Shown piece after piece: positions 19,942-52,054 of a DNA stretch of 64,000 nt. The stretch is taken from the NCBI GenBank assembly GCA_963681505.1, contig OY811979.1, forward strand, positions 3,402,977-3,466,976, in the 5' to 3' direction. Numbering within the stretch: the stretch's first letter is position 1; each line of letters starts with the position of its first letter. The position numbers and the translations under genes were made by a program. The stretch comes from Eunapius fragilis (taxonomy: Eukaryota > Porifera > Demospongiae > Spongillida > Spongillidae). The notes under the pieces were generated by a model, which saw only the letters and a list, made by a program, of their open reading frames with translations, searched no databases and was not told the origin of the DNA.

Positions 19942-19989
19942 TGTACTGCAAGACTCAAAAGCACTTAAAATAACACTACTCTGACTTCT

Positions 19990-20690
19990 ACTATTTACAC
20001 TGCCACTGCTGAACCCCCCACTGAAACCACTGCTATTGCCACTGTTACTATTGCCACTACTACTGAAAACACGGCTGCTACTGAAAACTCTGCTACTATT
20101 GCCACTACTACTGAAAACACGGCTGCTACTGAAAACTCTGCTACTATTGCCACTGTCACTGATGAAACACTGCTACTATTGCCACTGTCACTGATGCCAC
20201 TGCTGAAAACACCGCTACTGTTGCCACTGTCACTGATGCCACTGCTGAAAACACTGCTACTATTGGCTGATGCCACTGCTGAAAACACTGCTACTATTGC
20301 CACTGTCACTGATGCCACTGCTGAAAACACTGCTACTATTGCCACTGTCACTGATGCCACTGCTGAAAACACTGCTACTATTGCCACTGTCACTGATGCC
20401 ACTGCTGAAAACACCGCTACTGTACGTTGCCACTGTCACTGATGCCACTGCTGAAAACACTGCTACTATTGCCACTGTCACTGATGCCACTGCTGAAAAC
20501 ACTGCTACTATTGCCACTGTCACTGATGCCACTGCTGAAAACACCGCTACTGTACGTTGCCACTGTCACTGATGCCACTGCTGAAAACACTGCTACTATT
20601 GCCACTGTCACTGATGCCACTGCTGAAAACACCACTACTGTTGCCACTGTCACTGATGCCACTCATGAAAACACTGCTACTATTGCTGGA
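19990..20690. repeat. 42-bp minisatellite inside the hAT element
   Basis: About fifteen copies of GCCACTGTCACTGATGCCAC followed by TGCTGAAAACACTGCTACTATT, some with a GTACGTT insertion. The unit is a multiple of three and stays open in several frames; on the transposase strand one frame gives a 14-residue Ser/Gly/Asn repeat (SGISDSGNSSSVFS). It lies just 5' of the zinc-finger frame and could be a repetitive N-terminal extension or 5' non-coding DNA. Confidence 0.9.
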
Positions 20691-24960: not shown

Positions 24961-24965
24961 TCTAC

Positions 24966-27210: not shown

Positions 27211-27469
27211 AATTGTAACATTAATGACAACACTTTAGCAACTGGTCTTAGTAACTCCTCAGATTTCATCTATTAATACCTGCACACTAAACCTTTCAAC
27301 TAACACATGCTCCACACCAACACGAATCCAGATTTTTAAAAGCATAAACATGCACTGAAATGTATTATTGTTTTGCATATTCCAAATTATAATACATCGG
27401 TCTGGCAGCACCATTCAGATTACTTGGTTATACTTGAAAGCGTTGTCAAGTAGGCCATTGAAAAGATGG

Positions 27470-28470
27470 TCCCAGGAAAGAGTCAGCATCCAGGAACTAG
27501 CCATGGCATAGTGTTTCCCATCCTCCCATGTAAACACCTACCCTGTGGGAACAGGGAACTGTCATCAGAATGTGTGTATCTGCTATAAAACTTACAGAGG
27601 TGGCATCCATCTTCTGTGAAGATGAGATGGGAATAATTTCATTTGGGGGTCACACACAAGTTGGTAAGGCATTGGGGAACTACGTGTGGCATTGGGTTTC
27701 CCATCCTCACATGTACACACCTTCCCTGTGGGAACAGGGAATTGTCATCAGAATGTCTGGATCTGCTTTAGAACTTAACAAAGGGTGGCATCCATCTTCA
27801 GTGAAGTTGATGTGTGAATAATTTCATTTGAGGTTCCTCACAAGTTGGCTAGGCATTTGGGAACTACGCGTGGCGTTGGGTTCCCCATCCCCACATGTAC
27901 ATACCTACCCTGTAGGAACAGGTAACTGTCATCAGAATGTCTGGATCCGCTTTAGAACTTACATAGGTGGCATCCATCTTCAGTGAAGTTGATATGTGAA
28001 TAATTTCATTTGAGGTTCCTCAGAAGTTGGCTAGGCGTTTTGGAACTACACGTGGCGTTGGGTTCCCCATCCTCACATGTACACACCTACCCTTTGTGTA
28101 TACGGAACTGTCATCAGAATGTCTGTATCTGCTTTAGAACTTACATAGGTTGCATCCATCTTCAGTGAAGATATGTGAATAATTGCATTGGGGGTCACTC
28201 ATAAGTCAGTCAGGCATTGGGGAACTACGCGTGGCGTTGGGTTCCCAATCCTCACATGTACACACCTACACTGTGGGAACATGGAACTGTCATCAGAATG
28301 TCTGGATCTGCTTTCATAGGTGGCATCCATCTTTAGTGTAGATGATATGTGAATCATTTCATTTGGGGGTCACTAACTAGTCAGTCAGGCATTGGGGAGC
28401 TACGTGTGGTGTTGGGTACCCCATCCTGACATGTGCACACCTACCCTGTGGGAACAAGAAACTGTCATAT
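27470..28470. repeat. 183-bp satellite array, reverse orientation, about 6 copies
   Basis: The same unit as the preceding array but reverse-complemented (GGAACTGTCATCAGAATGTC, GTGGCGTTGGGTTCCCCATC). A 260-bp unique spacer separates the two arrays. Copies here are more diverged than those in the forward array. Confidence 0.93.
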
Positions 28471-32039: not shown

Positions 32040-32556
32040 GATTCAAAACCAGACATGAATTCGCACAGTGTGTATTAATTACTACCTGTAGTGCTCTGTT
32101 GACATGATTTCCAATGAATGCCCCATCTCGTTTGCATGTCATGCATTTCACCAGTACATCTTGCAGCAACCTTAGTATCATCTGTGATGCTGGTTGATGG
32201 TCTCTGGCGCCAGTTGATGTGGTGGAGAACAGAAAGGGAAGAATGTCTGTGCAGAAGCTGTTAATTGCTGTACCAAACATCCTGTACACACCAGAGTATC
32301 ACATGACAGCTGTAATGGTTGATCAAGAGTCTTCTGGCATATGGCACATAACAGCATTTCAGCAACAGAAAGGACTTGGTTGGCAGATACTGCTGGATGT
32401 TCGTTGGAAGAGATGAGTTTTTGTGGGGCAATCTGCTCAATGTGTTGGATAAGGTTCTTGGTTTATGCTATGTCCATGGATTGTTTTGCAGGATACCTGC
32501 TTATCTTTGTCCAGCAACGTTATCTGTATGATGTGTACTCCTGCATATGAATATAC
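32040..32556 (-). pseudogene. RING/RAG1-N-like gene, C-terminal half (split by the giant element)
   Basis: Reading leftwards, one frame gives IEQIAPQKLISSNEHPAV and then a RING-like pattern LLCAICQKTLDQPLQLSCDT, LVCTGCLVQQL. After a frameshift near 32210 the sequence continues PASQMILRLLQDVLVKCMTC. C-x2-C..C..C-x2-C followed by a conserved 'LVKC..C' segment is the arrangement seen in the RING and following zinc region of RAG1 and in N-RAG-type transposon proteins. Additional frame breaks lie near 32450. The matching N-terminal half is at 45497-45815, beyond the inserted element. Confidence 0.55.
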
Positions 32557-35500
32557 ATATATATGGGAAAGTTTCCGAGAAAAGGGACCTAGCGTGTATT
32601 ATAATAAAGCATAATAAAAATGCATTACGTTTGAAATGCTATAACTTCCGAACGGTTAACGCTATCGTCTTCCTATTTTCAGCACTTCATACTATACCAT
32701 TTCTCTATTGTAAAATACATTTTGGGATCTTGAACATGCTCCATGCCAGTATCGCGATGTCCGATACCCCAAGGGGTTCAAACCCGCCATAACTTTCGGC
32801 AGGAGTAATCAAATCGCTCCAAATTCGGTTTGTCGGTAGAGAGGTCCTGCAGCTATTGATTTGTTCTGTTCGTTAATTTTTATGTTATCCGTTGCGGAGA
32901 TACAGCTGTGCAAAGTAAGTACAAGTTTCCCGCTCGAATCGCGCCGTTGTATCTGCGCGAACCGATTCCATTCACCGATGTATACATGAATATTCAACTA
33001 CATCCACCCACCATCACTGTGACGCAATGTAAGTTGTCTGGGGACCTGAATAATTTGCTTTTCGCCTGTGATTTCGAAGACGAAGATCGAAGAAGTCAAG
33101 TTTGAGAGCGGTAGCGGTAACTAGCTGTGGAGCACCGCAGACGAGTTCCCGTAGTGGACAGCTGTGGAGTATGGCAGACAGTGGAGTAACTACATGCAGT
33201 ACGCAGCTACTATCCTACGGCAGACAGCAGTGGAATGAGCACCGCAGCAGACGGCATGGAGTAACCCTAAGGCAGGCAGCTATGCAATGGACCCTATGGC
33301 AGAAAATACGACAGAGGATAAGTATAACTGTGAAACAAAACCAGGCAGAGCTGTGGAATGGACTCCAGCAGTAAACAGCTGTAGAGATGGCAGGCAGATA
33401 GGTGTGTCCAGAAGATAGTGGAACAACTACAAACGAGTGTGGAGTAGACCAAATAGTAGACAATACATGTAGGTAGTGGACATCAACACTGCACCATATG
33501 GAATAGACTCTACTGCAGATATCTACCTGAATACTGTATCGAGTGAACCCTACTGAGTGGACCCTGTGGCAGACATCTACTGTAAATGGACATCTACTGT
33601 ATGAAGTGGACCCTATACTGCAGACCCAGTGGACAGACATCGACGATAATGAGTAGACCAGCATACGGCAGGCAAGCAGCTGTGGAGTGGCCCATATGAC
33701 AGAACCACACAGCAATGACATATGTGAAGCAGACAGACATGTGTCTAACTTATAGCAAGCAGCTGTGGAGTGACACTACTGCAAAAAGCCATAATGTGAC
33801 CCCTATGCCAGATACATGCACATGTACAGCTATGACCCCTCCACCCTACCTCCCGCACTGCACCCTACACCCATTCCTTACAGTGAACAGTGTTAGCGAT
33901 GGAGTGGACTCTCTTTTGAGTGGACTCCACCCACCCTACAGCTACATGAACAGTGTCAGCCATGGAGCAGGCCCTCTTTTAAGTTAGCTATTGAGTGGAC
34001 TCCACCCTACCCCTGTGCTGCACCCTAAACACATGCACACACAACACGTACACGCATGCACTTGTACACAGCACCTATGCACTGCCATGTGTGCTCAACT
34101 TGTTTCTTCATTCCGTCAACAGGACTGTTTAGAACAGGAGTGATTGCAGGTTTTCCCTGCCTTAAAGCCTACCTACACCCAGTGGACTGCACCTTCGTAC
34201 ATGTACGTGTACGTACACAGTCATTTGCTAGTAGTTTGTTACACATCTAGTTGTGCAGCTGTGCACACAGTACAATGTACGTTTATCATGTCCCCATAGG
34301 ATTGAACCTCTACGCGTGCATGCTTCTTGTCTCCACACATACATGCGCACAGCACTTGTACACACAGCACTTGTACACAGTTTCGCTGCACCTATGCACT
34401 GCCATGTGTGCTCAACTTGTTTCTTCATTCCGTCAACAGGACTGTTTAGAACAGGAGTGATTGCAGGTTTTCCCTGCCTTAAAGCCTACCTACCCCCAGT
34501 GGACTGCACCTTCGTACATGTACGTGTACTTACACAGTCATTTCCTAGTAGTTTGTTATACATCTAGTTGTGCAGCTGTGCACACAGTACAATGTACGTT
34601 TATCATGTCCCCATAGGATTGAACCTCTACACGTGCATGCTTCTTGTCTCCTCACATACATGCGCACAACACTTGTACACACAGCACTTGTACACAGTTT
34701 CGCTGCACCTATGCACTGCCATGTGTGCTCAACTTGTTTCTTCATTCCGTCAACAGGACTGTTTAGAACAGGAGTGATTGCAGGTTTTCCCTGCCTTAAA
34801 GCCTACCTACCCCCAGTGGACTGCACCTTCGTACATGTACGTGTACTTACACAGTCATTTCCTAGTAGTTTGTTATACATCTAGTTGTGCAGCTGTGCAC
34901 ACAGTACAATGTACGTTTATCATGTCCCCATAGAATTGAACCTCTACACGTGCATGCTTCTTGTCTCCATACATGCGCACAACACTTGTACACACAGCAC
35001 TTGTACACAGTTTCGCTGCACCTATGCACTGCCATGTGTGCTCAACTTGTTTCTTCATTCCGTCAACAGGACTGTTTAGAACAGGAGTGATTGCAGGTTT
35101 TCCCTGCCTTAAAGCCTACCTACCCCCAGTGGACTGCACCTTCGTACATGTACGTGTACTTACACAGTCATTTCCTAGTAGTTTGTTATACATCTAGTTG
35201 TGCAGCTGTGCACACAGTACAATGTACGTTTATCATGTCCCCATAGGATTGAACCTCTACACGTGCATGCTTCTTGTCTCCTCACATACATGCGCACAAC
35301 ACTTGTACACACAGCACTTGTACACAGTTTCGCTGCACCTATGCACTGCCATGTGTGCTCAACTTGTTTCTTCATTCCGTCAACAGGACTGTTTAGAACA
35401 GGAGTGATTGCAGGTTTTCCCTGCCTTAAAGCCTACCTACACCCAGTGGACTGCACCTTCGTACATGTACGTGTACGTACACAGTCATTTGCTAGTAGTT

Positions 35501-38495
35501 TGTTATACATCTAGTTGTGCAGCTGTGCACACAGTACAATGTACGTTTATCATGTCCCCATAGGATTGAACCTCTACACGTGCATGCTTCTTGTCTCCAC
35601 ACATACATGCGCACAACACTTGTACACACAGCACTTGTACACAGTTTCGCTGCACCTATGCACTGCCATGTGTGCTCAACTTGTTTCTTCATTCCGTCAA
35701 CAGTACTGTTTAGAACAGGAGTGATTGCAGGTTTTCCCTGCCTTAAAGCCTACCTACACCCAGTGGACTGCACCTTCGTACATGTACGTGTACGTGCACA
35801 GTCATTTGCTAGTAGTTTGTTATACATCTAGTTGTGCAGCTGTGCACACAGTACAATGTACGTTTATCATGTCCCCATAGGATTGAACCTCTACACGTGC
35901 ATGCTTCTTGTCTCCACACATACATGCGCACAACACTTGTACACACAGCACTTGTACACAGTTTCGCTGCACCTATGCACTGCCATGTGTGCTCAACTTG
36001 TTTCTTCATTCCGTCAACAGGACTGTTTAGAACAGGAGTGATTGCAGGTTTTCCCTGCCTTAAAGCCTACCTACACCCAGTGGACTGCACCTTCGTACAT
36101 GCACGTGTACGTACACAGTCATTTGCTAGTAGTTTGTTATACATCTAGTTGTGCAGCTGTGCACACAGTACAATGTACGTTTATCATGTCCCCATAGGAT
36201 TGAACCTCTACACGTGCATGCTTCTTGTCTCCACACATACATGCGCACAACACTTGTACACACAGCACTTGTACACAGTTTCGCTGCACCTATGCACTGC
36301 CATGTGTGCTCAACTTGTTTCTTCATTCCGTCAACAGGACTGTTTAGAACAGGAGTGATTGCAGGTTTTCCCTGCCTTAAAGCCTACCTACACCCAGTGG
36401 ACTGCACCTTCGTACATGTACGCGTACGTACACAGTCATTTGCTAGTAGTTTGTTATGCATCTAGTTGTGCAGGTGTGCACACAGTACAATGTACGTTTA
36501 TCATGTCCCCATAGGATTGAACCTCTACGCGTGCATGCTTCTTGTCTCCACACATACATGCGCACAACACTTGTACACACAGCACTTGTACACAGTTTCG
36601 CTGCACCTATGCACTGCCATGTGTGCTCAACTTGTTTCTTCATTCCGTCAACAGGACTGTTTAGAACAGGAGTGATTGCAGGTTTTCCCTGCCTTAAAGC
36701 CTACCTACCCCCAGTGGACTGCACCTTCGTACATGTACGTGTACTTACACAGTCATTTCCTAGTAGTTTGTTATACATCTAGTTGTGCAGCTGTGCACAC
36801 AGTACAATGTACGTTTATCATGTCCCCATAGGATTGAACCTCTACGCGTGCATGCTTCTTGTCTCCACACATACATGCGCACAACACTTGTACACACAGC
36901 ACTTGTACACAGTTTCGCTGCACCTATGCACTGCCATGTGTGCTCAACTTGTTTCTTCATTCCGTCAACAGGACTGTTTAGAACAGGAGTGATTGCAGGT
37001 TTTCCCTGCCTTAAAGCCTACCTACACCCAGTGGACTGCACCTTCGTACATGTACGTGTACGTACACAGTCATTTGCTAGTAGTTTGTTATACATCTAGT
37101 TGTGCAGCTGTGCACACAGTACAATGTACGTTTATCATGTCCCCATAGGATTGAACCTCTACGCGTGCATGCTTCTTGTCTCCACACATACATGCGCACA
37201 ACACTTGTACACACAGCACTTGTACACAGTTTCGCTGCACCTATGCACTGCCATGTGTGCTCAACTTGTTTCTTCATTCCGTCAACAGGACTGTTTAGAA
37301 CAGGAGTGATTGCAGGTTTTCCCTGCCTTAAAGCCTACCTACTCCCAGTGGACTGCACCTTCGTACATGTACGTGTACCTACACAGTCATTTCCTAGTAG
37401 TTTGTTATACATCTAGTTGTGCAGCTGTGCACACAGTACAATGTACGTTTATCATGTCCCCATAGGATTGAACCTCTACACGTGCATGCTTCTTGTCTCC
37501 TCACATACATGCGCACAACACTTGTACACACAGCACTTGTACACAGTTTCGCTGCACCTATGCACTGCCATGTGTGCTCAACTTGTTTCTTCATTCCGTC
37601 AACAGGACTGTTTAGAACAGGAGTGATTGCAGGTTTTCCCTGCCTTAAAGCCTACCTACACCCAGTGGACTGCACCTTCGTTCATGTACGTGTACGTACA
37701 CGGTCATTTGCTAGTGGTTTGCTGCACATGTATTGTTACGTGTACATGCATACATGTAGTAGCATGCATTCAGCTGACAGTTCTCATTTTTCCTCTCTAA
37801 ATACTATTCCTATGTTCACCTTGAATTTTCTTTAGCTGTTTCTATGTGCACACATTAGTGTCTTGTGATTGGTCCTCTGTGCATAGAAATAGTGGTTACG
37901 GTTACATGTACATGTAGTTGTTCCATGGCAAGGACACAGTGCTCGATTTACTGAAGTGTCATATCATGAGCATTATGTTTGTCCTCAAAGTACATGTATG
38001 TTGCTCCTTACAACTGGTCCTCTGCCACGTTCCCATATGATGGTGCTTCCTAATGTGTCACCAATGTGTGTTTGTAAAATGTTGTCAAACTTGTACATAT
38101 ACCCCCTAAGGATGAGTTTACATAAGCAAAATTGATTAGGCCATGCCTATCAAGATAAGATAACCCAGGCAGGTGTTGTGTATGCATGTACCTTACAGGG
38201 TCTCTTTTGGCACAATAGTATCTGTGGATGCCTTTTGGCACAACTATCTGTTTTGTAGCTGGATGTATGTGTAGAGCATACCTTTACATGTATACCTTTA
38301 TCTCACACTTTTACAGTTGTGACCAACTGTGTGCTTATGTGTCTGAATGTGCTATCAAAGACGAATCGTCATCTAGCAACAACTAGAGCTAACTGAGACT
38401 GAGGTTGTGTTTATGATGGTGTGTTTATGTCACATGATCACTTCCTGTCATAAATGTTGTGGTCACTCTTTGTGTAATTGGCTGCTGTTACTTTC
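32557..38495 (+). repeat. left inverted arm of the giant element
   Basis: About 5.9 kb. Order from the tip: GGGAAAGTTTCCGAGAAAAG terminus, about 1.4 kb of unique arm sequence, the 317-bp array, then 760 bp ending GTGTAATTGGCTGCTGTTAC. No domain was recognised in arm translations. Confidence 0.9.
34030..37735 (+). repeat. 317-bp tandem array, about 11 full copies plus a partial
   Basis: The unit starts CTAGTTGTGCAGCTGTGCAC, and copies begin at about 34248, 34565, 34882, 35195, 35512, 35829, 36146, 36463, 36780, 37097 and 37414. The unit contains GTACATGTACGTGTAC palindromes and CCGTCAACAGGACTG. Copies are almost identical, falling into subtypes that differ at a few bases (for example CTACACCC or CTACCCCC), which indicates recent homogenisation. 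Confidence 0.97.
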
Positions 38496-38603
38496 GGAAT
38501 TGTAGGTTGTATTTAAATTGTACATGTATGGGACATTTACAAATTGGCACTGGGGCTGTGCATAATGTGTGCTGTATAATATGTTATGATCCAAGTCAGC
38601 ACA

Positions 38604-41144
38604 TTATTGCAGTGGATGATTCTTCTTCTTATGGCTATACAATGCTTGGTAGCTTGCATACTTTTTAGTGCATAGTGGGCATAGATGATTATATTCCAAC
38701 TCTGACCTTTTCCTTCTTTTTCGCACTGATATTTGTTCACCGTTTTCATCTTGATTGATCTGTCTGCCTCTTTTTTTAATTTCTTTGCTACATGTACTTG
38801 ATAGTGTTGAGCTTTGACATGATGGTCCTTGCATATCACATTCTTCCCTTACCATGATATCTGGCCCAATCACAGTAGGATGGGCAGTATTTGATTCTTC
38901 ATATGGATTTGGATTGGGACAAACCTTGTCTCTATTCGATGGACAATGCACATATTTTCTTACTTTTTCATACAGGTACTGCTCTCTTGCTGGAGTAAGT
39001 CCTTTCGGAACAATAGTTAGGGGCATTTCTTTGTTGTGGAAAGCGTTGACAATATCACAAATCTTGATTCCTTGTTTGAGCAAGCTTATCTCTCTACCTT
39101 CATCATCTGGTGTTTTTTTCATCATCATAACTCCTGGATTATGCTTATCGAAACAAAATATGTGGTATTTGTTTATCCCAACCAAAGGAACAAACCATTT
39201 GCTTAGGTATGCATCCCAATTGTAAAAGCTCCAATCTCTGCAAAGCTGTGGTATACATGATACTTCTTTCCCGCACTCTTTGACGCATTTCACTAGTTCG
39301 TCAAGTGTGTCAATACAGTTCTGCACACGGTATTGCCTTTTAAATATTCCAAAATAGGAGTCAGGTCTGAATTTTGTGTGTCCAGGTAGCATGTATTGGA
39401 TATCAATTCTATGGTGCTGATCAGTTATTATACGCCATGCTAGATACCACATCATTGTTTTGTTTTTATTCTGTCCTACACAGTTGTCAGCTTGCAATGT
39501 TGCATACGTTTCCCCTATCCCATGAAGTTCGAAGAATGCATGCAATAAACTGACAACTGAATTGGATCCCTTTCCGATCTGTTCTGACTCATCAATGAGA
39601 AAGAAAACTTGCCTGCATAAGGGCTCACAGCAGACACCAAAAACCTGCACTTTACGAGGAGATACAAAATAAAATGTGCCTCGTTGCTGGGAACTGTATG
39701 GAATGGATACATTTTGACAAAAGTCAAAGGAATATTGCATTTGTGTATTCAAGTAGGGGTAACTAGACCGATTCTGCAATTCATCCATCTTCACCCCTTG
39801 TCTACAAAGAGCACGGCATAGAAGTGTGGCTTTATCAATATTGGTATTGTAGGCCTCTCGTAACACTTTAGCTTCAGTTATATGCTGAATGTAGCTTGTG
39901 TTGATCCTAATTCTTTCACCCTCGCTTAGGCTGTGTCGTAATGACACTAAAGCCATATCGCAAACATCGCACAGATCACTTTTGCTGGGACAGAATTTTA
40001 TATTGCTGCAAAACCTGTGCCATAAATGAGTAAATGCAATGTAGCTGACACATCTATATTGCTGTTCTGTAGATGCTGCTGGAGTAGGTGACTCTGATTG
40101 AGTAGTAGTATGCACAAGTGTGTATAGCCTTCTTTTTTCGGTCAGTGTTGTTAGATTTTGCACCTTTGATGGCTGAGTTGGTGGGGATGCTTGGATTTGT
40201 ATTGCCTGGCAATATTTGTTATACACTTCTCTCATAGTGACATTGCTCTCGAGCACATAATCTCGTATCGGTCCCTTTAGGCGTCCAGGGTCTGAAAGAC
40301 CATTCGTTGCTGCATACTTTCGTATGAAATTCACTACAATGCTCTTATCCCGTAGTGACAATGCATGGTGAGGAATTTTTTTACTGTTACCATGCGTTTG
40401 AGGTACTACATCATTTTTTGAAAAGGATTTTTGCAATAACTTCATAGTTTTAACTTTGAAACCAGTTACAGCACAGAATGCTGAATAGCAAATCCGAGAA
40501 GTCCAGTCAAGGCAATAGTTGAAAGATCTTCGAGAACGTTCACCACGGGAAACAAATTCAGACTCAACATGGATCATAGCCAGCATCCCTAATATCACTG
40601 CCTTCTTTGTAGCCTTCCTTAGTTGGGACATTGCATAAGCACGCTTTGTAGCCAAATCTTTGTACTTAATCAGGCAATTACTACTACAGCACCCTCCATT
40701 TTTTAAGTACTCACGAAGCAAACTGCTGAGCCTACCTGGTCTGTGTGAGTTTCGCTGGTCATTTTCATTATCATCTTCGGCATTTTCATTTTCATCATCA
40801 TCACCATCATCATCATCATCACCATCATCACCATCATCAGACTTGTGGTCATCATTCTGCTCATCACTATCATGACCCTCATCAACTTGCAGATGTTCAT
40901 AATCCATGTCAACCTCATCATTTTCCTGGTCATCACTATCATTCTCATTGGCCTCTTCAGGACCATCACTTTCATTTTCACAACCCACGTCAGGACCATC
41001 ACTTTCGTTTTCACAAACCGCTTCGTCTTCACAGTCCTCGTCAATTGCATCGCTATCAGTCTGAAAATCATAAACACCACTGCCCTGTTCTTTGGCACTG
41101 TAGAACTCGGATTCCATCGGTCGGAAGGGTTTTTGCATTTTCAA
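38604..41144 (-). CDS. DUF7869-like protein, candidate transposase of the giant element
   Basis: Single intact frame, 846 residues. Residues about 30-140 are strongly acidic (Asp/Glu/Asn runs). A Cys cluster CCSSNCLIKYKDLA follows, then a basic helical region. The core (about 440-640) has PSKSDLCDVCDMAL, YSFDFCQNVSIPYSS, RKVQVFGVCCEPLCRQVFFL, TLQADNCVGQNKNKT and LPGHTKFRPDSYFGIFK; Asp474, Asp553 and Asp595 are plausible metal ligands of an RNase-H-like fold. The C-terminus has a C2H2 finger (Cys822, Cys825, His838, His843). This layout fits the DUF7869-type family of eukaryotic mobile-element proteins as I recall it; no search was run. Catalysis of transposition is inferred from context. The first Met is used; a second Met lies at residue 10. 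Confidence 0.75.
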   Translation of the reverse strand: MKMQKPFRPMESEFYSAKEQGSGVYDFQTDSDAIDEDCEDEAVCENESDGPDVGCENESDGPEEANENDSDDQENDEVDMDYEHLQVDEGHDSDEQNDDHKSDDGDDGDDDDDGDDDENENAEDDNENDQRNSHRPGRLSSLLREYLKNGGCCSSNCLIKYKDLATKRAYAMSQLRKATKKAVILGMLAMIHVESEFVSRGERSRRSFNYCLDWTSRICYSAFCAVTGFKVKTMKLLQKSFSKNDVVPQTHGNSKKIPHHALSLRDKSIVVNFIRKYAATNGLSDPGRLKGPIRDYVLESNVTMREVYNKYCQAIQIQASPPTQPSKVQNLTTLTEKRRLYTLVHTTTQSESPTPAASTEQQYRCVSYIAFTHLWHRFCSNIKFCPSKSDLCDVCDMALVSLRHSLSEGERIRINTSYIQHITEAKVLREAYNTNIDKATLLCRALCRQGVKMDELQNRSSYPYLNTQMQYSFDFCQNVSIPYSSQQRGTFYFVSPRKVQVFGVCCEPLCRQVFFLIDESEQIGKGSNSVVSLLHAFFELHGIGETYATLQADNCVGQNKNKTMMWYLAWRIITDQHHRIDIQYMLPGHTKFRPDSYFGIFKRQYRVQNCIDTLDELVKCVKECGKEVSCIPQLCRDWSFYNWDAYLSKWFVPLVGINKYHIFCFDKHNPGVMMMKKTPDDEGREISLLKQGIKICDIVNAFHNKEMPLTIVPKGLTPAREQYLYEKVRKYVHCPSNRDKVCPNPNPYEESNTAHPTVIGPDIMVREECDMQGPSCQSSTLSSTCSKEIKKRGRQINQDENGEQISVRKRRKRSELEYNHLCPLCTKKYASYQALYSHKKKNHPLQ

Positions 41145-41325
41145 GAGCGTAACAGGTTGCTATTATTATGAATTGGAATTGAAATGGCTCTGCAGACAAA
41201 GGTCTTCGAAACTAAGAACGGCGAAAATATAGAAAAGAAACGTATGTGATTAATATTCAGAACGTGCGGATATTTATAGCCATAACGCATCGCATATAAT
41301 TGAAACTCCTGCATGTATAGCCGCT
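41145..41325. promoter_or_regulatory. shared intergenic region of two divergent genes
   Basis: 181 bases separate the two start codons. It is AT-rich, and two divergent promoters must fit here unless 5' exons were missed. No specific core promoter motif stands out. Confidence 0.45.
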
Positions 41326-42363
41326 ATGAGTCTGACAGCAATAATAAGGGAAGGAAAACAGCTTCTGGACACAGCGATGGAGCAGGCAATCCAATATCTT
41401 GAAGAGAACGAGTGTAAGCGCATATACAGTTTCATGCGTGCATGCTGCTCAATTACTATGCTCAAGCCCTCAAACAAAACCTACAAGATGAGAAGAGTAG
41501 AAACAAGGAATTCAAAGAAAAAATTGCGAACTTAGAAGCGATTATATCAAAGTTAGTTTGAATACTACATGTAGTGATCAATAGTATCGCATGGGCATGG
41601 CTGTACTTCCATGTAGGCAAAAGGTCGAAATCGAACGTACCAAGGAAGCCTTATATCTGACCTCCACCCCAATGATTCCCACTACGAGTACTGAATCTCA
41701 ATGTGAACCAATATCCCCTATCATTGGTAGCAGTAGGGTAGGTTATTGTAGTAGCAGGTACAGTGGTCTTAGTAATGATACCATGCATAACCAGGTTGGA
41801 GTTATTCATCACAAATGCAATGAGCTTGAGGTCTGGGAAGGATCACAGGAGCTCCTGAATACAGATGATGAAGAGTTAAACCCAGAGAAAACTGTAGTAG
41901 AGGAAACCGACCTGGAGGATACAGATGTCAACATGCCAGAAAATAAGTAAGTGCATGGACTAGCATGTGAGATCATTCAGCAAAAGCAATACTTTTTACG
42001 GCATGATATTGCTGCATTAATTGCAGGAACACAAACCAAACAAATAAAAGAGTAAAGGGTCCTAGTTACAAGTACTTGGTCCCTATCAGAAAAAAAAAAG
42101 ATCGCGACAAGCTGAATGCCAAACCTTGCCATGATTGTGAAAAGGTACTGTTTAAAACGTTGTATACTCAAAAGCTTTAACACTTAGTTCCAATGCAGTG
42201 GTTTGCATCAGGAGCCGGTGGTATACACAAAGATCAAAGAGAACATCTCAGGAGTGTGTGCAGACACAAGCATCTTCACCTACCACCTGACAGTGACCCT
42301 CGTGTGTGGGACATTAGTTTTCCTGACAGTGAAGAGTGTGAGCGCATCATGGCACCAAAGTGA
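41326..42363 (+). CDS. CtIP/Sae2-like protein, five exons, in the giant element
   Basis: Exons 41326-41413, 41467-41551, 41617-41946, 42027-42144 and 42199-42363 join across introns of 53, 65, 80 and 54 bp, all GT..AG, summing to 786 nt: 261 residues and a stop, with every phase consistent. Residues about 10-75 form a predicted coiled coil, 76-165 are polar and acidic, and 180-255 resemble the CtIP/Sae2 C-terminal domain: YKYLVPIRKKKDRDKL, CHDC at 202-205, then VCRHKH at 227-232, LPP and a FP-containing end. In that family the domain stimulates the MRE11-RAD50-NBS1 nuclease to trim blocked ends and open hairpins. The CDK-type Ser/Thr-Pro normally after PP is not present (PPDSDP). Host CtIP is much longer, so this is a compact version. 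Confidence 0.7.
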
Positions 42364-42413
42364 CTTTGTAGATCTGTCGTATTATCTTAAATACAACATA
42401 CATGTACGATTTT

Positions 42414-45400
42414 GAAAGTAACAGCAGCCAATTACACAGAGGGACCACAACATTTATGACAGGAAGTGATCATGTGACATAAACACACCATCATAACACA
42501 ACCTCAGTCTCAGTTAGCTCTAGTTGTTGCTAGATGACGATTCGTCTTTGATAGCACATTCAGACACATAAGCACACAGTTGGTCACAACTGTAAAAGTG
42601 TGAGATAAAGGTATACATGTAAAGGTATGCTCTACACATACATCCAGCTACAAAACAGATAGTTGTGCCAAAAGGCATCCACAGATACTATTGTGCCAAA
42701 AGAGACCCTGTAAGGTACATGACACCTGCCTGGGTTATCTTATCTTGATAGGCATGGCCTAATCAATTTTGCTTATGTAAACTCATCCTTAGGGGGTATA
42801 TGTACAAGTTTGACAACATTTTACAAACACACATTGGTGACACATTAGGAAGCACCATCATATGGGAACGTGGCAGAGGACCAGTTGTAAGGAGCAACAT
42901 ACATGTACTTTGAGGACAAACATAATGCTCATGATATGACACTTCAGTAAATCGAGCACTGTGTCCTTGCCATGGAACAACTACATGTACATGTAACCGT
43001 AACCACTATTTCTATGCACAGAGGACCAATCACAAGACACTAATGTGTGCACATAGAAACAGCTAAAGAAAATTCAAGGTGAACATAGGAATAGTATTTA
43101 GAGAGGAAAAATGAGAACTGTCAGCTGAATGCATGCTACTACATGTATGCATGTACACGTAACAATACATGTGTAGCAAACTACTAGCAAATGACTGTGT
43201 ACGTACACGTACATGAACGAAGGTGCAGTCCACTGGGTGTAGGTAGGCTTTAAGGCAGGGAAAACCTGCAATCACTCCTGTTCTAAACAGTCCTGTTGAC
43301 GGAATGAAGAAACAAGTTGAGCACTCATGGCAGTGCATAGGTGCAGCGAAACTGTGTACAAGTGCTGTGTGTACAAGTCTTGTGCGCATGTATGTGTGGA
43401 GACAAGAAGCATGCACGTGTAGAGGTTCAATCCTATGGGGACATGATAAACGTACATTGTACTGTGTGCACAGCTGCACAACTAGATGTATAACAAACTA
43501 CTAGCAAATGACTGTGCACGTACACGTACATGTACGAAGGTGCAGTCCACTGGGTGTAGGTAGGCTTTAAGGCAGGGAAAACCTGCAATCACTCCTGTTC
43601 TAAACAGTCCTGTTGACGGAATGAAGAAACAAGTTGAGCACACATGGCAGTGCATAGGTGCAGCGAAACTGTGTACAAGTGCTGTGTGTACAAGTGTTGT
43701 GCGCATGTATGTGTGGAGACAAGAAGCATGCACGCGTAGAGGTTCAATCCTATGGGGACATGATAAACGTACATTGTACTGTGTGCACAGCTGCACAACT
43801 AGATGTATAACAAACTACTAGCAAATGACTGTGTACGTACACGTACATGTACGAAGGTGCAGTCCACTGGGTGTAGGTAGGCTTTAAGGGAGGGAAAACC
43901 TGCAATCACTCCTGTTCTAAACAGTCCTGTTGACGGAATGAAGAAACAAGTTGAGCACACATGGCAGTGCATAGGTGCTGTGTACAAGTGCATGCGTGTA
44001 CGTGTTGTGTGTGCATGTGTTTAGGGTGCAGCACAGGGGTAGGGTGGAGTCCACTCAATAGCTAACTTAAAAGAGCGCCTGCTCCATGGCTGACACTGTT
44101 CATGTAGCTGTAGGGTGGGTGGAGTCCACTCAAAAGAGAGTCCACTCCATCGCTAACACTGTTCACTGTAAGGAATGGGTGTAGGGTGCAGTGCGGGAGG
44201 TAGGGTGGAGGGGTCATAGCTGTACATGTGCATGTATCTGGCATAGGGGTCACATTATGGCTTTTTGCAGTAGTGTCACTCCACAGCTGCTTGCTATAAG
44301 TTAGACACATGTCTGTCTGCTTCACATATGTCATTGCTGTGTGGTTCTGCCATATGGGCCACTCCACAGCTGTTTGCCTGCCGTATGCTGGTCCACTCAT
44401 TATCGTCGATGTCTGTCCACTGGGTCTGCAGTATAGGGTCCACTTCATACAGTAGATGTCCATTTACAGTAGATGTCTGCCACAGGGTCCACTCAGTAGG
44501 GTTCACTCGATACAGTATTCAGGTAGATATCTGCAGTAGAGTCTATTCCATATGGTGCAGTGTTGATGTCCACTACCTACATGTATTGTCTACTATTTGG
44601 TCTACTCCACACTCGTTTGTAGTTGTTCCACTATCTTCTGGACACACCTATCTGCCTGCCATCTCTACAGCTGTTTACTGCTGGAGTCCATTCCACAGCT
44701 CTGCCTGGTTTTGTTTCACAGTTATACTTATCCTCTGTCGTATTTTCTGCCATAGGGTCCATTGCATAGCTGCCTGCCTTAGGGTTACTCCATGCCGTCT
44801 GCTGCGGTGCTCATTCCACTGCTGTCTGCCGTAGGATAGTAGCTGCGTACTGCATGTAGTTACTCCACTGTCTGCCATACTCCACAGCTGTCCACTACGG
44901 GAACTCGTCTGCGGTGCTCCACAGCTAGTTACCGCTACCGCTCTCAAACTTGACTTCTTCGATCTTCGTCTTCGAAATCACAGGCGAAAAGCAAATTATT
45001 CAGGTCCCCAGACAACTTACATTGCGTCACAGTGATGGTGGGTGGATGTAGTTGAATATTCATGTATACATCGGTGAATGGAATCGGTTCGCGCAGATAC
45101 AACGGCGCGATTCGAGCGGGAAACTTGTACTTACTTTGCACAGCTGTATCTCCGCAACGGATAACATAAAAATTAACGAACAGAACAAATCAATAGCTGC
45201 AGGACCTCTCTACCGACAAACCGAATTTGGAGCGATTTGATTACTCCTGCCGAAAGTTATGGCGGGTTTGAACCCCTTGGGGTATCGGACATCGCGATAC
45301 TGGCATGGAGCATGTTCAAGATCCCAAAATGTATTTTACAATAGAGAAATGGTATAGTATGAAGTGCTGAAAATAGGAAGACGATAGCGTTAACCGTTCG

Positions 45401-45492
45401 GAAGTTATAGCATTTCAAACGTAATGCATTTTTATTATGCTTTATTATAATACACGCTAGGTCCCTTTTCTCGGAAACTTTCCCATATATAT
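42414..45492 (-). repeat. right inverted arm of the giant element
   Basis: About 3.1 kb, the reverse complement of the left arm: inner end GTAACAGCAGCCAATTACAC, then the short 317-bp array, then the unique outer arm and the terminus CGGAAACTTTCCCATATAT. Confidence 0.9.
43180..44000 (-). repeat. 317-bp tandem array in the right arm, two full copies plus a partial
   Basis: Same unit as in the left arm, reverse orientation, copies bounded at about 43482 and 43799. The partial copy on the outer side matches the partial copy at the outer edge of the left array, so boundaries are conserved while copy number is not. Confidence 0.95.
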
Positions 45493-45496
45493 ATAA

Positions 45497-46630: not shown

Positions 46631-47865
46631 CTATGATGACATCATAACATCTTCACGGGACACAGGTTGGTAGAGCAGGTGGTAACAGTCCTCTGTGAGC
46701 CCAGCCACGCCCCCTGCTGCCTCCGCAAGAGCCACACCCATTCCACTGCAGACCGCCCACGTGTAATCGTCCTCTCTTGGTACACGCTGGCATGCATTCC
46801 TCAGGGCCTTGTGCGCCATGGCAACAGCCATGACACGCCCCCCTTCATCCAGTACACTCCACAAGGCATCAGCGATGAGTTGCGGCACACGCAGCAGGAT
46901 GGCACCCCCTCCTCCTCCTCCCCCTCCTCCTCCCCCTCCTTCACAGACCACGGCTGCAGTACTGGGCTTCACCACACATGGGGAGGGGTACTGCCTTATA
47001 AGGTGACGCTGTCTCAACCCCTCCACCAGAGGGGGGCAACTCCCCCTAGGAGACGCCTGTCCAACTATCTCTTGGACTGCATCCACCACAACCTCTGGTA
47101 TGGGGGATTCCCCAAAGAGAAGTAAGCTAGACAGGACCAGCTGCTCTTCTGGACTGAGGTAGGCGGGGCTTGAGTTGAACCCTCCCAGCAGAGAATGGGA
47201 CACCTGAGCCAGCCAGTCCCCCGAATCGCCACAAAGAACATCCTCGCTGGGTAATGCTATTTCGTCCATTGGCTCCGTGTCTCTCTTGTTCCTGGTGCCG
47301 CGCTGTAACAGCAACGATGAGAAGGCGTCGACCAGCTCAGGTGAGCCGTGGGACACGCCCACCACCCGTGCCAATAGCTCCTGGTCACTGTTGAGGGGAA
47401 CGAGATGAACCCTCGATTGCAACGTATACACGAGCCTCTGTGTTGCCTGGAGGGGGCTCAACGGCTCCACCCTGTGGACACAGGACCCCCTGTGGAGCCT
47501 GGTGCGTGCTTCTTCCTGCATGGCTTCTGGACTGGTGGTGATCACAATGATGTGGGTATGGCAGCTTGCCAGGACAGACAGCATGGCTTCAGGCATCACA
47601 TCAGTGCAGAGGTTGTCAAGGACGATCAGCAAGGGGCTGGTGGGAGGGGCCAAGGGGTTGGTGGGAGGGGCCAGTGGGAGGGTCTCCTGTAAGTGTTGTG
47701 GTTGGGGCATGTTGGCACTCAGTATGCTCACTGAGCCTTGCAAGAGGTGCTCCAAGCTACCGTTCACCCAGAATATCCCTCCCCCAAAGTGGGTGTGGTG
47801 TTTAATGATGAAATCAATAACAGGGTCCTCAGGTACAAGACCGGAACAGGAATGTAGTATCTGGA
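46631..47865 (-). CDS. NB-ARC/STAND-like C-terminal exon of the TPR-CHAT gene
   Basis: Open from an AG acceptor near 47866 to a stop at 46631, about 410 residues. It begins GLVPEDPVIDFIIKHHTHFG and GIFWVNGSLEHLL, then LLIVLDNLC (Walker-B-like), IIVITTSPEAM (sensor-like), RVEPLSPLQATQRLVY and a helical/winged region with LSPEEQLVLSSLLLFGESPI. This is the order of an NB-ARC/STAND NTPase after its P-loop. The P-loop itself (GxxGxGK[T/S]) is not in this exon or in the low-complexity DNA before it. A 12-Gly run coded by GGA/GGT-type triplets interrupts the C-terminal part. The NTPase would act as an oligomerisation switch for the CHAT domain. Confidence 0.65.
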
Positions 47866-47869
47866 ATCA

Positions 47870-48110
47870 TGGAGGGGAGGGGAGGGGAGGGAAGGGGAGG
47901 GGGGAAGGGGAGGGGAGGGAAGGGGAGGAGTGGAGTGGAGGGAGTGGAGGAGAGGGAGGGGAGTGGAGGAGAGGAGAGAGAGGAGTGGAGGAGAGGAGGG
48001 AGGGAGAGGAGGAAGGAGGAAGTGGAGGAGGTAAGAGGTAATTCAAGGAGGTAATACAAGAGGGAGGTGAGAGGAGAGAGGGGAGGAGAGGAAGTAAGGT
48101 AGAGAACTTC
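47870..48110. repeat. GGAGGG/GGGGA purine-rich repeat
   Basis: About 230 bases almost purely G and A on the plus strand, in the presumed intron between the CHAT and STAND exons. It gives many meaningless open frames. Confidence 0.9.
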
Positions 48111-48185
48111 GATACAACTAACAGAGGCAGAGGTCTTGACACCTGTACAACATGAGGTCTACATTTAACACCACATCAATGCAAC

Positions 48186-48206
48186 CCCCCCCCCCCCCCC
48201 CCCCCC
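48186..48206. repeat. poly-C tract
   Basis: More than 20 consecutive C, in the presumed intron of the TPR-CHAT gene. Confidence 0.9.
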
Positions 48207-48294
48207 TTTCCCCGTGGACTGTCAGGACAATAGACATTAAATGGTACCTATAAAAGTTTTTCTTTCAGGTATCTTGATGTTAAGAAGGTACACC

Positions 48295-48602
48295 TTATGG
48301 CAGCACCTTATAGGAGCACCTTATAAGAGCACCTTATAACAGCACCTTATAACAGCACCTTATGGCAGCACCTTATAGGAGCACCTTATAACAGCACCTT
48401 ATAACAGCACCTTATGGCAGCACCTTATAGGAGCACCTTATAACAGCACCTTATAATAGCACCTTATGGCAGCACCTTATGGCAGAGATAATATATTATC
48501 TAATACATGATCTCTGCTTATAGGAGCACCTTATAATAGCACCTTATGGCAGCACCTTATAACAGCACCTTATGGCAGCACCTTATAGGAGCACCTTATA
48601 AC
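48295..48602. repeat. 13-bp minisatellite
   Basis: Unit AGCACCTTATAAC with variants AGCACCTTATGGC and AGCACCTTATAGG, about 20 copies, interrupted at about 48485-48525 by unique sequence. It lies inside the presumed intron of the TPR-CHAT gene. Confidence 0.92.
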
Positions 48603-48945
48603 ATTATTGTCACAAGTATCTTTTTATTGGAAGCTTTTATGGACCTACAACCAGCAAGCCCCCTCCACCCCCTCACCAAATTGATGGGGCTAGCCCCCTC
48701 CACCCCCTTAGGGTCACCCCCTCACTAACAAACTACTGTCCTGTCATTGTCGCCATGACATCCATGACAACATCCCCATGGCATTGTTGTTATACATAGG
48801 CAAGTGTTCTGACCCCTGACCTAATCAAACAGTATAATGACATATTGTGATGACACACATTGTGATGTAGTCACAACATGACCCCTTGACCAATCACCTC
48901 ATAAATGATCTGACCCCATGACCAATCACCTCATGACCAATCACC

Positions 48946-51909
48946 TCATGAACAACTGACCTGGACATCTGACGCTCTGCCAGCAGTACACAACACAATG
49001 GCATCCTCCATCTTGTTCAGCAGGTCCAGACGGGGGAAGGCACTGCCTCCTCCTACCCTCGTACACAACATGATGTCTTCTGAGGTCCTCTCCACCACAA
49101 ACTGCACATCCCTTCCGATCAGCTGGAACCCACCCCAGTGTGAATACGAGGAATACTTCTTGAAACACCTCACACTCAGAGTGGCCTTTTGGAGGGCATG
49201 TGTGGTGCCCAGACCATCCACCAGGTATTGGTAGAAGAACTGCATGAACATACCAGCACTCTCATCGGGGATCCTCCACAGAGTGGTGAGGACGGACTGG
49301 GCACCCGCAAGAAGGAAGGCCCTTCCCATGCCGATGATGCCGTCAGCACGCACCATACCACGCCCACTGTCACAGCTACTGAGGACAACGATGGCAGCTC
49401 TGATGGTCAGCTTCTCCACCTCACTGGGCAAGAGAAGGACGTCGGTGCCCTCAGTGGGACAGTCCCCAGACCCACACTGGGTCCCGGCCAGTGCCAGGAA
49501 CCCGCTCACCCTCCCTCCGTGTGTCGCAATGTGGATCAGCTTGGCTTCCACCAGCCTCCTGCACACCTTCACCTTAGTGGCCTCCTCCTCCAGAAGGGCG
49601 TGGCTTCCAAGAATGTGGGCGACCCACTCCGCCTCCTTTCGGGCGTGGGGGAGGCGCCCCAGCTTCCAGTCCTCTCCGTTGTGTCTGAAGGGAGGGATGG
49701 CCGGGTCTCCCACGATGCAGAAGTTGGGACTATCCAATGGGATTGTGACCCGGGTGAGCAACTGCTGGGTAGAGGGGGTGTGACACATCAACCCCATCGT
49801 CAGAAGGGATGGCATAACACGAAGTCGCAGCCTGTCCCCTAGGAACCCAGAACGGTCAGGATGAAGGAGTGCTGCAAATGGAATCAATGTGTGGCTGTCA
49901 GGTACCAGTACAATCTCACTGGGAAGGCGGCCCAAGTGGACTGCCATTAGCACTTTGAGGAGAGGCTGAACCAGGATGCTGCCTAGGGGAAGAAGTGGGG
50001 ATGGGGAGGAGTAGTCGCAGAACTCAAACATCTCTAGAGAGTTCTCGGCAATTAGCTCTGACATTGTGTTGTGGAGGAACACCTCCAGCGTACTGCCGTT
50101 AAAGAGCACGCCATCCAGCCTCACCTCTATCATATTCTCCACAACCCTGCCGCGTAAGGGTGAAAGCACCCACACAAGCAGGCTGGCACCGGTGTAGGAG
50201 AGATAGACCACATCGACGCTCTGTTCCAGGACTATGCAGCTGATGTCCCCAGAGGAGAGGGGAGGGGAGAACAGACGCCCAAACTGGGCACCCTTCTTTC
50301 TCAACAGAAGCTCACCAAGCGATCGAGCCCGGCTTTGCTCTGCATACATGAGGGCATCAGAGGATCTTCCCAGGGCACAGAGACAGTCCTGCATGTGGTG
50401 GAAGGTCCGTGAGCTACTCTCAGCAAGGGACACAGAGAGGCCTAAGCCCTCCCCAGACCCCTTTATGCTGTGCAGTGTATCTTCGTGTGATTTTATCACA
50501 TCCTTGAGGTCACCCAATGCCTCTGAATACAGACTCCGAACCGGCTCCGACAGGAGACGCTGGTCACACGCCATTGATGGACCGTGGAACGTGATCCTAT
50601 TGGTGTCATCTATAGCCCCTGATGTCATCTTCCTTGCCTTCTCACTCAAGCAGCATCCCCTATTGTGATGAGCAGCAATTAGAATTGCCGAATCGTTGCT
50701 GATCTGCAATGTCTCGGTGAAGCTGGCGATGGCTGCGTCATGGTCCTTCTTCAGCATTGCTACGTTGCCCAGGTTACCATAGGCGCGGGCCTGCCCCGCT
50801 GGGTCCTTACCATAGATGCACTGTCCGAGGGCAAGCTGGTAGTACTCCTCTGCTCTGTCCAGCTCCCCGAGCGACTGGTAAGCGGTGCCAAGGTTATTGT
50901 AGGCACGTCCTATGGCCTGGGGAACTGGATCGTTCTCCAGGGTGAGGTCCAAACTCTTCACGAGGTGGAAGAGAGCCTTGTCTCTCTGGTGGAGCCCCAC
51001 GTACGCATTGCCGATGTTCCCGTGCGCATGACCCAGGGACACCAAGTCCCCCTCCTCTTCCGCCAGACCTAGGGCTTCTGTGTACTGCTGCACCGCGGAA
51101 GTGTGGTCACCGAGGGCGTGGTGCAGGGTGCCCAGACCGGTATATGCCGCGAGACGATCCTTCCTGTTGTGGACAGCGGTTTTAATGGCATTTCTGTACG
51201 CTTCGATGGCCGCCATGATCTTTGAAGCCTTCCTGAGGTTGGCGCCTTGCTTCAAGTAGAGCGAGGACAGAGATGGGGTCTGCGGGCAATAAGCGGCAGC
51301 AACAGAGGAGGGGGGAGGGGAGGAGGTGTAGCAGAATGTAGCCTTGCCGTAATATGAGACAGCTCCTAGGTAGTCCCCTTCGATGCTATGGATGTCCCCG
51401 AGGTACAAGCAGGCAAGAAAACGAGCTCCGCACGCATCGGCAGAGGGAGAATCCAAGCTCTCCAGTACTCTGAACCTTGCTGCTGACGTTTGGTAGTCCC
51501 CCAACTTGTAGTAGGCCAGTGCACAGCCCAGGAGAGACGCCACGTCTGGGGTGGAAGACGGCTCACCAGGAGAGGCTTGTTCAAGCAGCTGGACCACCCC
51601 GCTGTAGTCCTGTGCAAGGAAACAGCCGGCTGCTGTGTTCAGAAGGTCTGCGCTTCGCTGGTTAGTGTGGCCTGAGTGGGCATCGGTGCAGTTGGTCCAG
51701 ACGTAGGTAGGCGAGGAGATGAGTGGGTGTGGAGTGTCTCTACTGGAGTCTGAAGGTTGTGTTACACTCCTTTGGCTGGTGTTGGTGACATCGTGGTTGG
51801 CGTCCATTCTCCTGACCACTTTTCTCATAGCTGCTAGCCCTACTGAGTTCACCTTGTCTCCTGTTGAACTGTAACCAAAAGGAGAGAGCAAGAGAGATTG
51901 TACACACAC
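48946..51909 (-). CDS. TPR-CHAT protein (TTC28-like), large N-terminal exon
   Basis: A single 987-residue frame. Residues about 85-480 hold many tetratricopeptide repeats (LAAYTGLGTLHHALGDHTSA, AYNNLGTAYQSLGELDRAEE, ARAYGNLGNVAMLKKDHDAA). Residues about 600-965 form a CHAT domain, the caspase/separase-like peptidase fold, with His797 in LIHIATHGG and Cys846 in VVLSSCDSGRG, then GMGRAFLLAGAQSVLTTLWR and HWGGFQLIGRD. Both catalytic residues are present, so it may be an active protease; TPRs would bind partners. A GT donor (CAGGTCAGT) lies close to the stop at about 48960, so the transcript probably splices on to the STAND-like exon. The true start may be a later Met (about 51828) or in an exon further up, since an AG acceptor sits near 51870. 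Confidence 0.85.
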   Translation of the reverse strand: MCVQSLLLSPFGYSSTGDKVNSVGLAAMRKVVRRMDANHDVTNTSQRSVTQPSDSSRDTPHPLISSPTYVWTNCTDAHSGHTNQRSADLLNTAAGCFLAQDYSGVVQLLEQASPGEPSSTPDVASLLGCALAYYKLGDYQTSAARFRVLESLDSPSADACGARFLACLYLGDIHSIEGDYLGAVSYYGKATFCYTSSPPPSSVAAAYCPQTPSLSSLYLKQGANLRKASKIMAAIEAYRNAIKTAVHNRKDRLAAYTGLGTLHHALGDHTSAVQQYTEALGLAEEEGDLVSLGHAHGNIGNAYVGLHQRDKALFHLVKSLDLTLENDPVPQAIGRAYNNLGTAYQSLGELDRAEEYYQLALGQCIYGKDPAGQARAYGNLGNVAMLKKDHDAAIASFTETLQISNDSAILIAAHHNRGCCLSEKARKMTSGAIDDTNRITFHGPSMACDQRLLSEPVRSLYSEALGDLKDVIKSHEDTLHSIKGSGEGLGLSVSLAESSSRTFHHMQDCLCALGRSSDALMYAEQSRARSLGELLLRKKGAQFGRLFSPPLSSGDISCIVLEQSVDVVYLSYTGASLLVWVLSPLRGRVVENMIEVRLDGVLFNGSTLEVFLHNTMSELIAENSLEMFEFCDYSSPSPLLPLGSILVQPLLKVLMAVHLGRLPSEIVLVPDSHTLIPFAALLHPDRSGFLGDRLRLRVMPSLLTMGLMCHTPSTQQLLTRVTIPLDSPNFCIVGDPAIPPFRHNGEDWKLGRLPHARKEAEWVAHILGSHALLEEEATKVKVCRRLVEAKLIHIATHGGRVSGFLALAGTQCGSGDCPTEGTDVLLLPSEVEKLTIRAAIVVLSSCDSGRGMVRADGIIGMGRAFLLAGAQSVLTTLWRIPDESAGMFMQFFYQYLVDGLGTTHALQKATLSVRCFKKYSSYSHWGGFQLIGRDVQFVVERTSEDIMLCTRVGGGSAFPRLDLLNKMEDAIVLCTAGRASDVQVSCS

Positions 51910-52054
51910 CAGCCAAAGACACTTTTTTTTACCTTGGTCCTCAGGTCAATCACAACTACACTTGTGGTCTGCATTAATGGCTATAAAATTTTCTTTTCTT
52001 TTTTTTTCTTTTTCTTTTTTCCTTATTCTTTTTTATGCAGCCATAAAGGGCAAG

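Follow-up and report, generated by a model that had tools for sequence, protein, structure and literature searches.

A Multi-Copy DNA Transposon of the Sponge Eunapius fragilis with Kilobase Inverted Arms, a Probable DUF7869 Transposase and a CtIP-Like Companion Gene

Introduction

Copying of the donor gap from the sister chromatid regains a cut-and-paste element, and CtIP stimulates resection, a step that tips repair towards copying. Cutting of the mariner type is not known to make hairpins. Very long terminal inverted repeats (TIRs) occur in the IS630-Tc1-mariner group according to passages of its literature (PMC8533490 or PMC5490172), and parts of PMC6344080 state that DNA binding and bridging by human CtIP need N-terminal coiled-coil tetramerisation and a C-terminal RHR motif. 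Here, we describe an element of 12,922 bp in a window of 64,000 nucleotides (contig OY811979.1, positions 3,402,977 to 3,466,976) that was sampled from the 219-Mb genome of the sponge Eunapius fragilis, whose 24 contigs are labelled C1, C2 and so on below. Two inverted arms enclose a core of about 4 kb holding two divergent genes, one for a protein with the Pfam domain DUF7869, most likely a DDD transposase by its modelled fold, and one for a small protein that resembles the C-terminus of CtIP/Sae2. The arms, the core and the two intact genes had been noticed in an earlier sequence-only reading of the window, and all of them were recovered by the inverted-repeat search, by an uninterrupted frame of 846 aa and by a five-exon gene with GT-AG introns.

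Structure and Mobility of the Element

The element spans positions 32564 to 45485, its exact ends having been set by comparing the termini of its copies; the bounds first proposed (32557-45492) did enclose it but overshot each end by 7 bases of TA-rich flank. Its termini are TGGGAAAG...CTTTCCCA, and the left and right end sequences, TGGGAAAGTTTC and GAAACTTTCCCA, are each bordered by TA. The arms are complementary at 97-100% over four blocks: 32554-34883 with 43166-45495 (99%), 36920-38182 with 42716-43978 (99%), 38185-38411 with 42495-42721 (100%), and 38411-38473 with 42434-42496 (97%). They are of unequal length (5.9 and 3.1 kb) because of their chief difference, a 317-bp tandem array that has 11.5 units on the left and 2.6 on the right.

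A genome search with the outer 944 bases gave 45 matches, with 40 of 2,102 candidates scored. The 24-base end TATGGGAAAGTTTCCGAGAAAAGG has 49 exact copies in the genome (28 forward, 21 reverse; none for the reversed control), and chance and a lone assembly artefact were rejected on these counts. In the DNA fetched around the outer-arm matches, two-ended copies were counted from a minimum end-to-end distance of 1.5 kb, which gave 18; a pair of ends on C11, 0.8 kb apart, is excluded from them, and a 20.6-kb pair on C5, which by its inverted repeats looks like two copies on either side of unrelated DNA, is still included. The termini TGGGA...TCCCA are present in all 18, which were found by similarity to these ends. 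The flanks are TA on both sides in 16 copies, AA on both sides in one, and differ in one. For the many copies that lie in TA runs, any duplication of more than TA would be indistinguishable from the target, and an exact TA duplication is seen in six copies outside such runs (E_C13, E_C23, E_C6b, E_C4, E_C1c, and E_C7).

When the flanks of the window copy were joined minus one TA, 40 scored places (of 70 candidates) matched across the junction at 86-94% identity. The window copy thus landed in a repeat that has at least 40 uninterrupted paralogues; those compared base by base have TA runs of other lengths. For a copy on C23, the second with both frames intact, the joined flanks match 40 scored places of 239 at 80-86%, and two empty paralogues read through a single TA in a base-by-base alignment. 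Among the 16 copies whose flanks were joined, there is one case, a non-coding relative on C1, that splits a frame of 240 aa, which Pfam does not recognise; the other joined-flank frames reach at most 96 aa, and a frame of 102 aa is read at the window site. Among the loci already fetched, none gave a convincing empty site for a copy. The element is mobile, as judged from its copy number, its TA duplications and the empty paralogous sites. Two of the things that the sequence-only reading had proposed to look for were found, further copies of the arms, with both genes also multi-copy, and uninterrupted paralogues at the window and C23 sites; arms found once and lacking any empty site, which it named as the contrary outcome, are contradicted by the 45 outer-arm matches and the empty paralogues.

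When the arms of each copy were compared along their outer 1,450 bases, they differed at 4 positions in the window copy, 1 in the C23 copy, 0 in C16, 6 in C5, and 42 in C7. Variants that are found in both arms of one copy and in no other arm compared number three in C16, two in the window copy, one in C5, and none in C23; the 15 such sites of the C7 copy were left unused, this being the most diverged copy, in which they may be ancestral. Since any new variant starts out in a single arm, its presence in both points, on these small numbers, to exchange between the two arms within a copy.

The DUF7869 Protein

The larger gene reads 846 aa from a TTG codon, or 844 aa from the first ATG, and its product has an N-terminal acidic tail and a C-terminal C2H2 finger. 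It matches DUF7869 (PF25273) at E 6.6e-18, and all 72 aligned members of its alignment match the domain too; the domain is given no function in Pfam and is not named in the open-access literature searched. A full-length model from 19 sequences was unusable, with a predicted local distance difference test score (pLDDT) of 39, and a model of residues 230-760 from a deeper alignment reached a pLDDT of 85.5. The latter has an RNase-H fold with a conserved predicted triad, D474, D553, and D595, and its best structural re-alignments are with Mos1, SETMAR, and retroviral integrases. On the basis of this predicted fold and triad, the protein is most likely a DDD transposase, in line with the role that had been read from the sequence. 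The TA duplication and the Mos1-like fold point to mariner-like chemistry, and we strongly infer that the enzyme cuts at TGGG/CCCA and joins the ends to TA, mechanistically like Tc1/mariner enzymes. This amounts to a proposed function for DUF7869, as the DDD transposase of TA-targeting elements, where Pfam assigns none. With TIRs of defined ends, a target-site duplication together with empty sites, and a predicted DDD RNase-H transposase, the element has the properties of a class II TIR-type DNA transposon.

Four of the 72 members weakly match DDE_Tnp_ISAZ013 (best E 0.037), and no Tc1/mariner family is among the Pfam matches listed for them (25 of 72 families). The viral structure library gave no match to the good model at E 0.001, and scans of viral contigs and genome contigs found no relative of the transposase. 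Ephydatia muelleri, a freshwater sponge, is the source of the named relatives of the protein, and the domain is present in sponges and in many short contigs of unnamed origin. One DUF7869 protein (P0087), encoded on a 4.5-kb contig, is assigned to a Desulfobacterales metagenome bin, which may reflect eukaryotic contamination. The transposase genes of the window and C23 copies differ by six synonymous and six non-synonymous changes, with a non-synonymous rate (dN) of 0.003 and a synonymous rate (dS) of 0.012.

The CtIP-Like Protein and Its Association with the Transposase Gene

The smaller gene (41326-42363, plus strand) encodes 261 aa in five exons, and its four introns, of 53-80 bases, are all of the GT-AG type. 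The protein just passes the cut-off of the Pfam profile for the SAE2/CtIP C-terminus, with E 0.0016 and 19.9 bits against 19.8, and a relative from Ephydatia (P0019) reaches 22.6 bits; P0020 and P0021, which lack the last exon or misread it, have no SAE2 match. Its core reads KPCHDCEK...CRHKHLHLPPDSDPRVWDISFP, and a coiled-coil-like N-terminus and an acidic linker are apparent by eye. The CtIP-like profile matches nothing among PDB sequences, where the single-sequence search gave one chance-like row (E 0.78) and no CtIP sequence matched the window protein.

When the genome was searched at the DNA level for the small gene, 12 matches were obtained. Six of them cover most of its length at 96-100%, one is a piece of 47 bases, and five match exons 4-5 at 69-76%. 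All six near-identical copies adjoin a whole or partial DUF7869 gene, so that the companion gene claimed in the sequence-only reading recurs with its partner, and it is in these six loci only that a C-terminal CtIP domain is shown beside the DUF7869 gene. For the transposase, a 481-base query found 21 matches, comprising six loci of the window family (the C16 copy by 64 bases only) and 15 diverged matches, of which six lie at five loci on four contigs at 80-87% and nine are at 67-72%. The expected place of the small gene was read at three of the four 84-87% loci (C6, C7, and C18), over 1.6-1.7 kb each. The C6 relative aligns along exons 1-3 with a score of 115, against a mean of 36 and a maximum of 46 in 40 shuffles, and the C7 relative aligns over part of exons 2-3 with a score of 64, against a shuffle maximum of 49. 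Because 5′ relics of the small gene thus persist in two of three relatives, the pairing of the two genes is older than the window family. The expectation that they always travel together holds within that family but only partly beyond it, where relics are kept in two of three relatives and the 67-72% loci are far from CtIP-like matches.

A second multi-copy mini-CtIP family was found at C15:3528420, C4:3137614, C12:5559925-5561174, and C7:1136865. Two of the five distant small-gene matches were read (C15 and C4; the other three are on C3, C18, and C9), and these copies, both broken, are 95.6% identical over 540 bases. Exon 5 of the C4 copy is 74% identical to the window protein, and the last intron position is apparently common to both families. 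A composite of exon 4 from C15 and exon 5 from C4 (74 codons) differs from the window gene synonymously in 22 codons and non-synonymously in 19 (dN 0.16, dS 1.6), which gives a dN/dS of about 0.1 for the CtIP C-terminus with dS near saturation. Even so, the low dN between the families indicates purifying selection on the CtIP core. Ephydatia muelleri has at least two near-identical CtIP-like copies (P0019 and P0020/P0021), as counted from gene names and two residue differences. The C4 copy of the second family adjoins what is by eye a Gypsy-like retroelement.

Proposed Mechanism and Alternative Explanations

We consider it fairly probable that the element is an autonomous cut-and-paste transposon whose DDD transposase is accompanied by a mini-CtIP acting with host MRE11-RAD50-NBS1 (MRN) on the breaks of the element. 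The transposase would cut the element ends and join them to TA. The mini-CtIP would multimerise through its N-terminal coiled coil, carry possible cyclin-dependent kinase sites in its linker, and, with its C-terminal CxxC...CRH domain, recruit or activate MRN at breaks arising from transposition and from the inverted arms. Resection and bridging would be promoted, the donor gap would be copied from a homologous template, and the element would be regained. Broken or folded-back arms would likewise be resolved rather than lost, as resection and hairpin processing would protect the arms and exchange them; arm-to-arm homogenisation is a predicted by-product, of which small-number signs were seen. 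A role in resection and copying is favoured over one on transposase-made hairpins because mariner-type cutting is not known to make any; if hairpins matter, the kilobase inverted arms are their likelier source. It is a tentative and rather doubtful extension that a whole superfamily, with DUF7869 DDD transposases and kilobase arms, encodes a CtIP-type resection factor that steers break repair to template copying and keeps the arms identical. If the companion does act through MRN, the influence of such elements on the repair of their own breaks would be directly testable.

Several observations weigh against this proposal. The window protein matches SAE2 only marginally, over 35 residues, and the RHR of human CtIP reads RHK here. 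For the transposase, Foldseek alone found no match to the good model at E 0.001 or better, and a profile search of PDB sequences returned nothing. Among the relatives at 84-87%, the C18 locus has no CtIP-like relic (its score of 42 equals the shuffle maximum of 42) and has a reverse-transcriptase-like frame in its place, and exons 4-5 were not found in the 1.6-1.7 kb read at C6, C7, and C18. The 80% match and the nine at 67-72% lie at least 99 kb from every diverged CtIP-like match, these loci being placed by coordinates alone, and the DNA search is blunt at 67-80% identity; no DUF7869 frame is present in the 2.7-2.8 kb upstream of the C15 and C4 copies of the second family. Within the window family, the transposase frame is intact in two of six copies (window and C23) and the small gene, with its splice sites, in three (window, C23, and C7), the remaining copies of either gene having frameshifts or deletions. 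The dN/dS of the CtIP-like gene is uninformative there (0-5 synonymous changes), and the near-saturated dS between the families is not computable for exon 4 alone. In addition, elements with homologous ends but other contents are present in the genome.

The frames broken in half of the small-gene copies, the C-terminal exons not found in the three 84-87% relatives and the more diverged transposase loci, around which no DNA match to the small gene was seen, also speak for a real transposon in which the CtIP-like gene is a captured passenger, hitch-hiking and having no role in transposition, and transposons do capture host genes. We regard such a passenger as unlikely, although it deserves serious consideration: the gene is present in every near-identical copy, its 5′ relics remain in two of three diverged relatives, its C-terminus is constrained relative to the second multi-copy family, and Ephydatia muelleri carries, by gene names and residue differences, two or more near-identical copies of a close relative. 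The conserved CxxC...CRH core also activates MRE11 in Sae2/CtIP, and this makes it quite unlikely that the protein is instead a structural part of the transpososome that bridges the far-apart ends by a route other than MRN. The repeated 317-bp arm unit could nevertheless hold binding sites for such a part, and the N-terminus, coiled-coil-like by eye, and CRHKH fit the bridging layout of CtIP given in parts of PMC6344080.

It is improbable that DUF7869 is cargo and that the ends are moved by a different enzyme of the genome, such as a Gypsy-like integrase or a transposase of the tnp2 type. An 18.5-kb copy on C11 with homologous arms does carry an rve integrase and a Josephin domain, and a Transposase_21 gene lies within the 20.6-kb pair on C5; that pair, first taken for one element with a tnp2 gene, looks by its inverted repeats like two copies around other DNA. 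The DUF7869 core recurs at six loci, intact at two, and the duplications of Ginger-type elements are 4-5 bp in passages of PMC2836005, against 2 bp here. Scarcely credible, and already contradicted, is the idea that the small gene is the host's own CtIP around which the element landed, an outcome that the sequence-only reading had named as contrary to its claim. The gene is spliced and CtIP-like, and no separate host CtIP was located by a genome SAE2 search that was blind, missing even the six known copies and the controls. The six near-identical copies, however, lie on five contigs, each beside a DUF7869 gene and three with broken frames, and a single-copy host CtIP was rejected since the gene is multi-copy. 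A retrotransposon or virus was rejected as well, no such gene being recognised in the core.

Related Elements and Other Features of the Window

The relative at C11:7420127-7438664 (L017, L018) spans 18.5 kb with 4-kb arms, of which the first 450 bp are 85% and a further 540 bp 72% like the window arms; its core, with the rve integrase and Josephin domain, has no DUF7869 match. Elements of 7-13 kb on C6, C18, C13, C1, and C2 (L019-L024, L027 with L031) have ends that are 86-87% like the outer 390 bp of the window element. Neither gene was found in them, their frames above 150 aa being mostly inverted minisatellite arrays, and nothing further inside the C13 element matches the window element; they are probable non-autonomous relatives. 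The right flanks of five of 17 copies (E_C11, E_C6a, E_C18, C1d, and E_C5a) adjoin a repeat that starts with TATATGGGACAGTGTCC or GACAGTCTCC, much like the terminal motif of the element itself, and insertion seems to favour TA runs at the ends of related elements. Two ends stand back to back at C11:6384793-6384840.

Elsewhere in the window, an inverted structure at 24961-28468 has 183-bp units, 12 copies followed by about five inverted ones, with arms about 84% alike. Frames that are hAT transposase-like by eye (18150-20172, minus strand) adjoin a tandem repeat, and about 1.1 kb past the right end of the element there are large frames (46631-51945, minus strand) that are TPR-CHAT-like with a STAND-like part by eye. 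The features of the element are collected in Table 1.

Table 1. Coordinates of the element and its parts in the window
Feature	Position	Strand	Basis or remark
TA target-site duplication, left copy	32562..32563	.	End comparison; empty paralogous sites carry TA runs of other lengths
Left inverted arm, ~5.9 kb, starts TGGGAAAGTTTCCGAG	32564..38473	+	Inverted-repeat search, end comparison
Outer ~395 bp, left arm; 84-88% like other, differently filled elements of the genome	32564..32958	+	
317-bp tandem array, 11.5 copies	34071..37721	.	Tandem-repeat search
DUF7869 gene	38604..41144	-	Uninterrupted frame, Pfam match, structure model
Short intergenic stretch separating the divergent genes	41145..41325	.	
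CtIP-like exon 1 (N-terminus coiled-coil-like by eye)	41326..41413	+	
CtIP-like exon 2	41467..41551	+	
CtIP-like exon 3 (linker)	41617..41946	+	
CtIP-like exon 4 (CxxC)	42027..42144	+	
CtIP-like exon 5 (SAE2/CtIP C-terminus with CRHKH) and stop	42199..42363	+	
Right inverted arm, ~3.05 kb	42434..45485	-	Inverted-repeat search, end comparison
317-bp tandem array, 2.6 copies, in opposite orientation to the left array	43162..43978	.	Repeat searches
Outer ~395 bp, right arm; 84-88% like other, differently filled elements	45091..45485	-	
TA target-site duplication, right copy	45486..45487	.	End comparison; empty paralogous sites

Comparison with Known Systems

Like the element described here, Ginger elements are invertebrate DNA transposons with extra domains, and the C11 copy with homologous arms carries an integrase of that kind. 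Neither window protein matches rve, the Ginger integrase core, in Pfam searches, and in passages of PMC2836005, Ginger elements have 4-5-bp duplications and TIRs of 40-270 bp, in contrast to the 2-bp TA found here. With the IS630-Tc1-mariner group, the element has in common the TA target and its duplication, and Mos1 is among the best re-aligned structures of the modelled transposase. The likeness extends to the DD41D families (Visitor, rosa, and LTIR): 41 residues separate the second and third D of the window protein, as they do in these families according to passages of PMC5490172 and PMC8533490, and its second D is followed by N and its third preceded by P, like the QQDNA and SPDLN given in the latter. 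The differences from this group lie in the length of the protein, 846 aa with a C2H2 finger and an acidic tail, and in the 12.9-kb size of an element with a second gene.

The small protein shares with CtIP, Sae2, Ctp1, and Com1 the C-terminal core and, by eye, the coiled-coil-like N-terminus and acidic linker, and it differs from them in its length of 261 aa, in being transposon-borne and in having RHK for the human RHR. As far as the open-access literature shows, a DNA transposon with a CtIP-like gene is undescribed, and the element would, if the proposed mechanism is true, be a transposon that brings its own choice of repair pathway.
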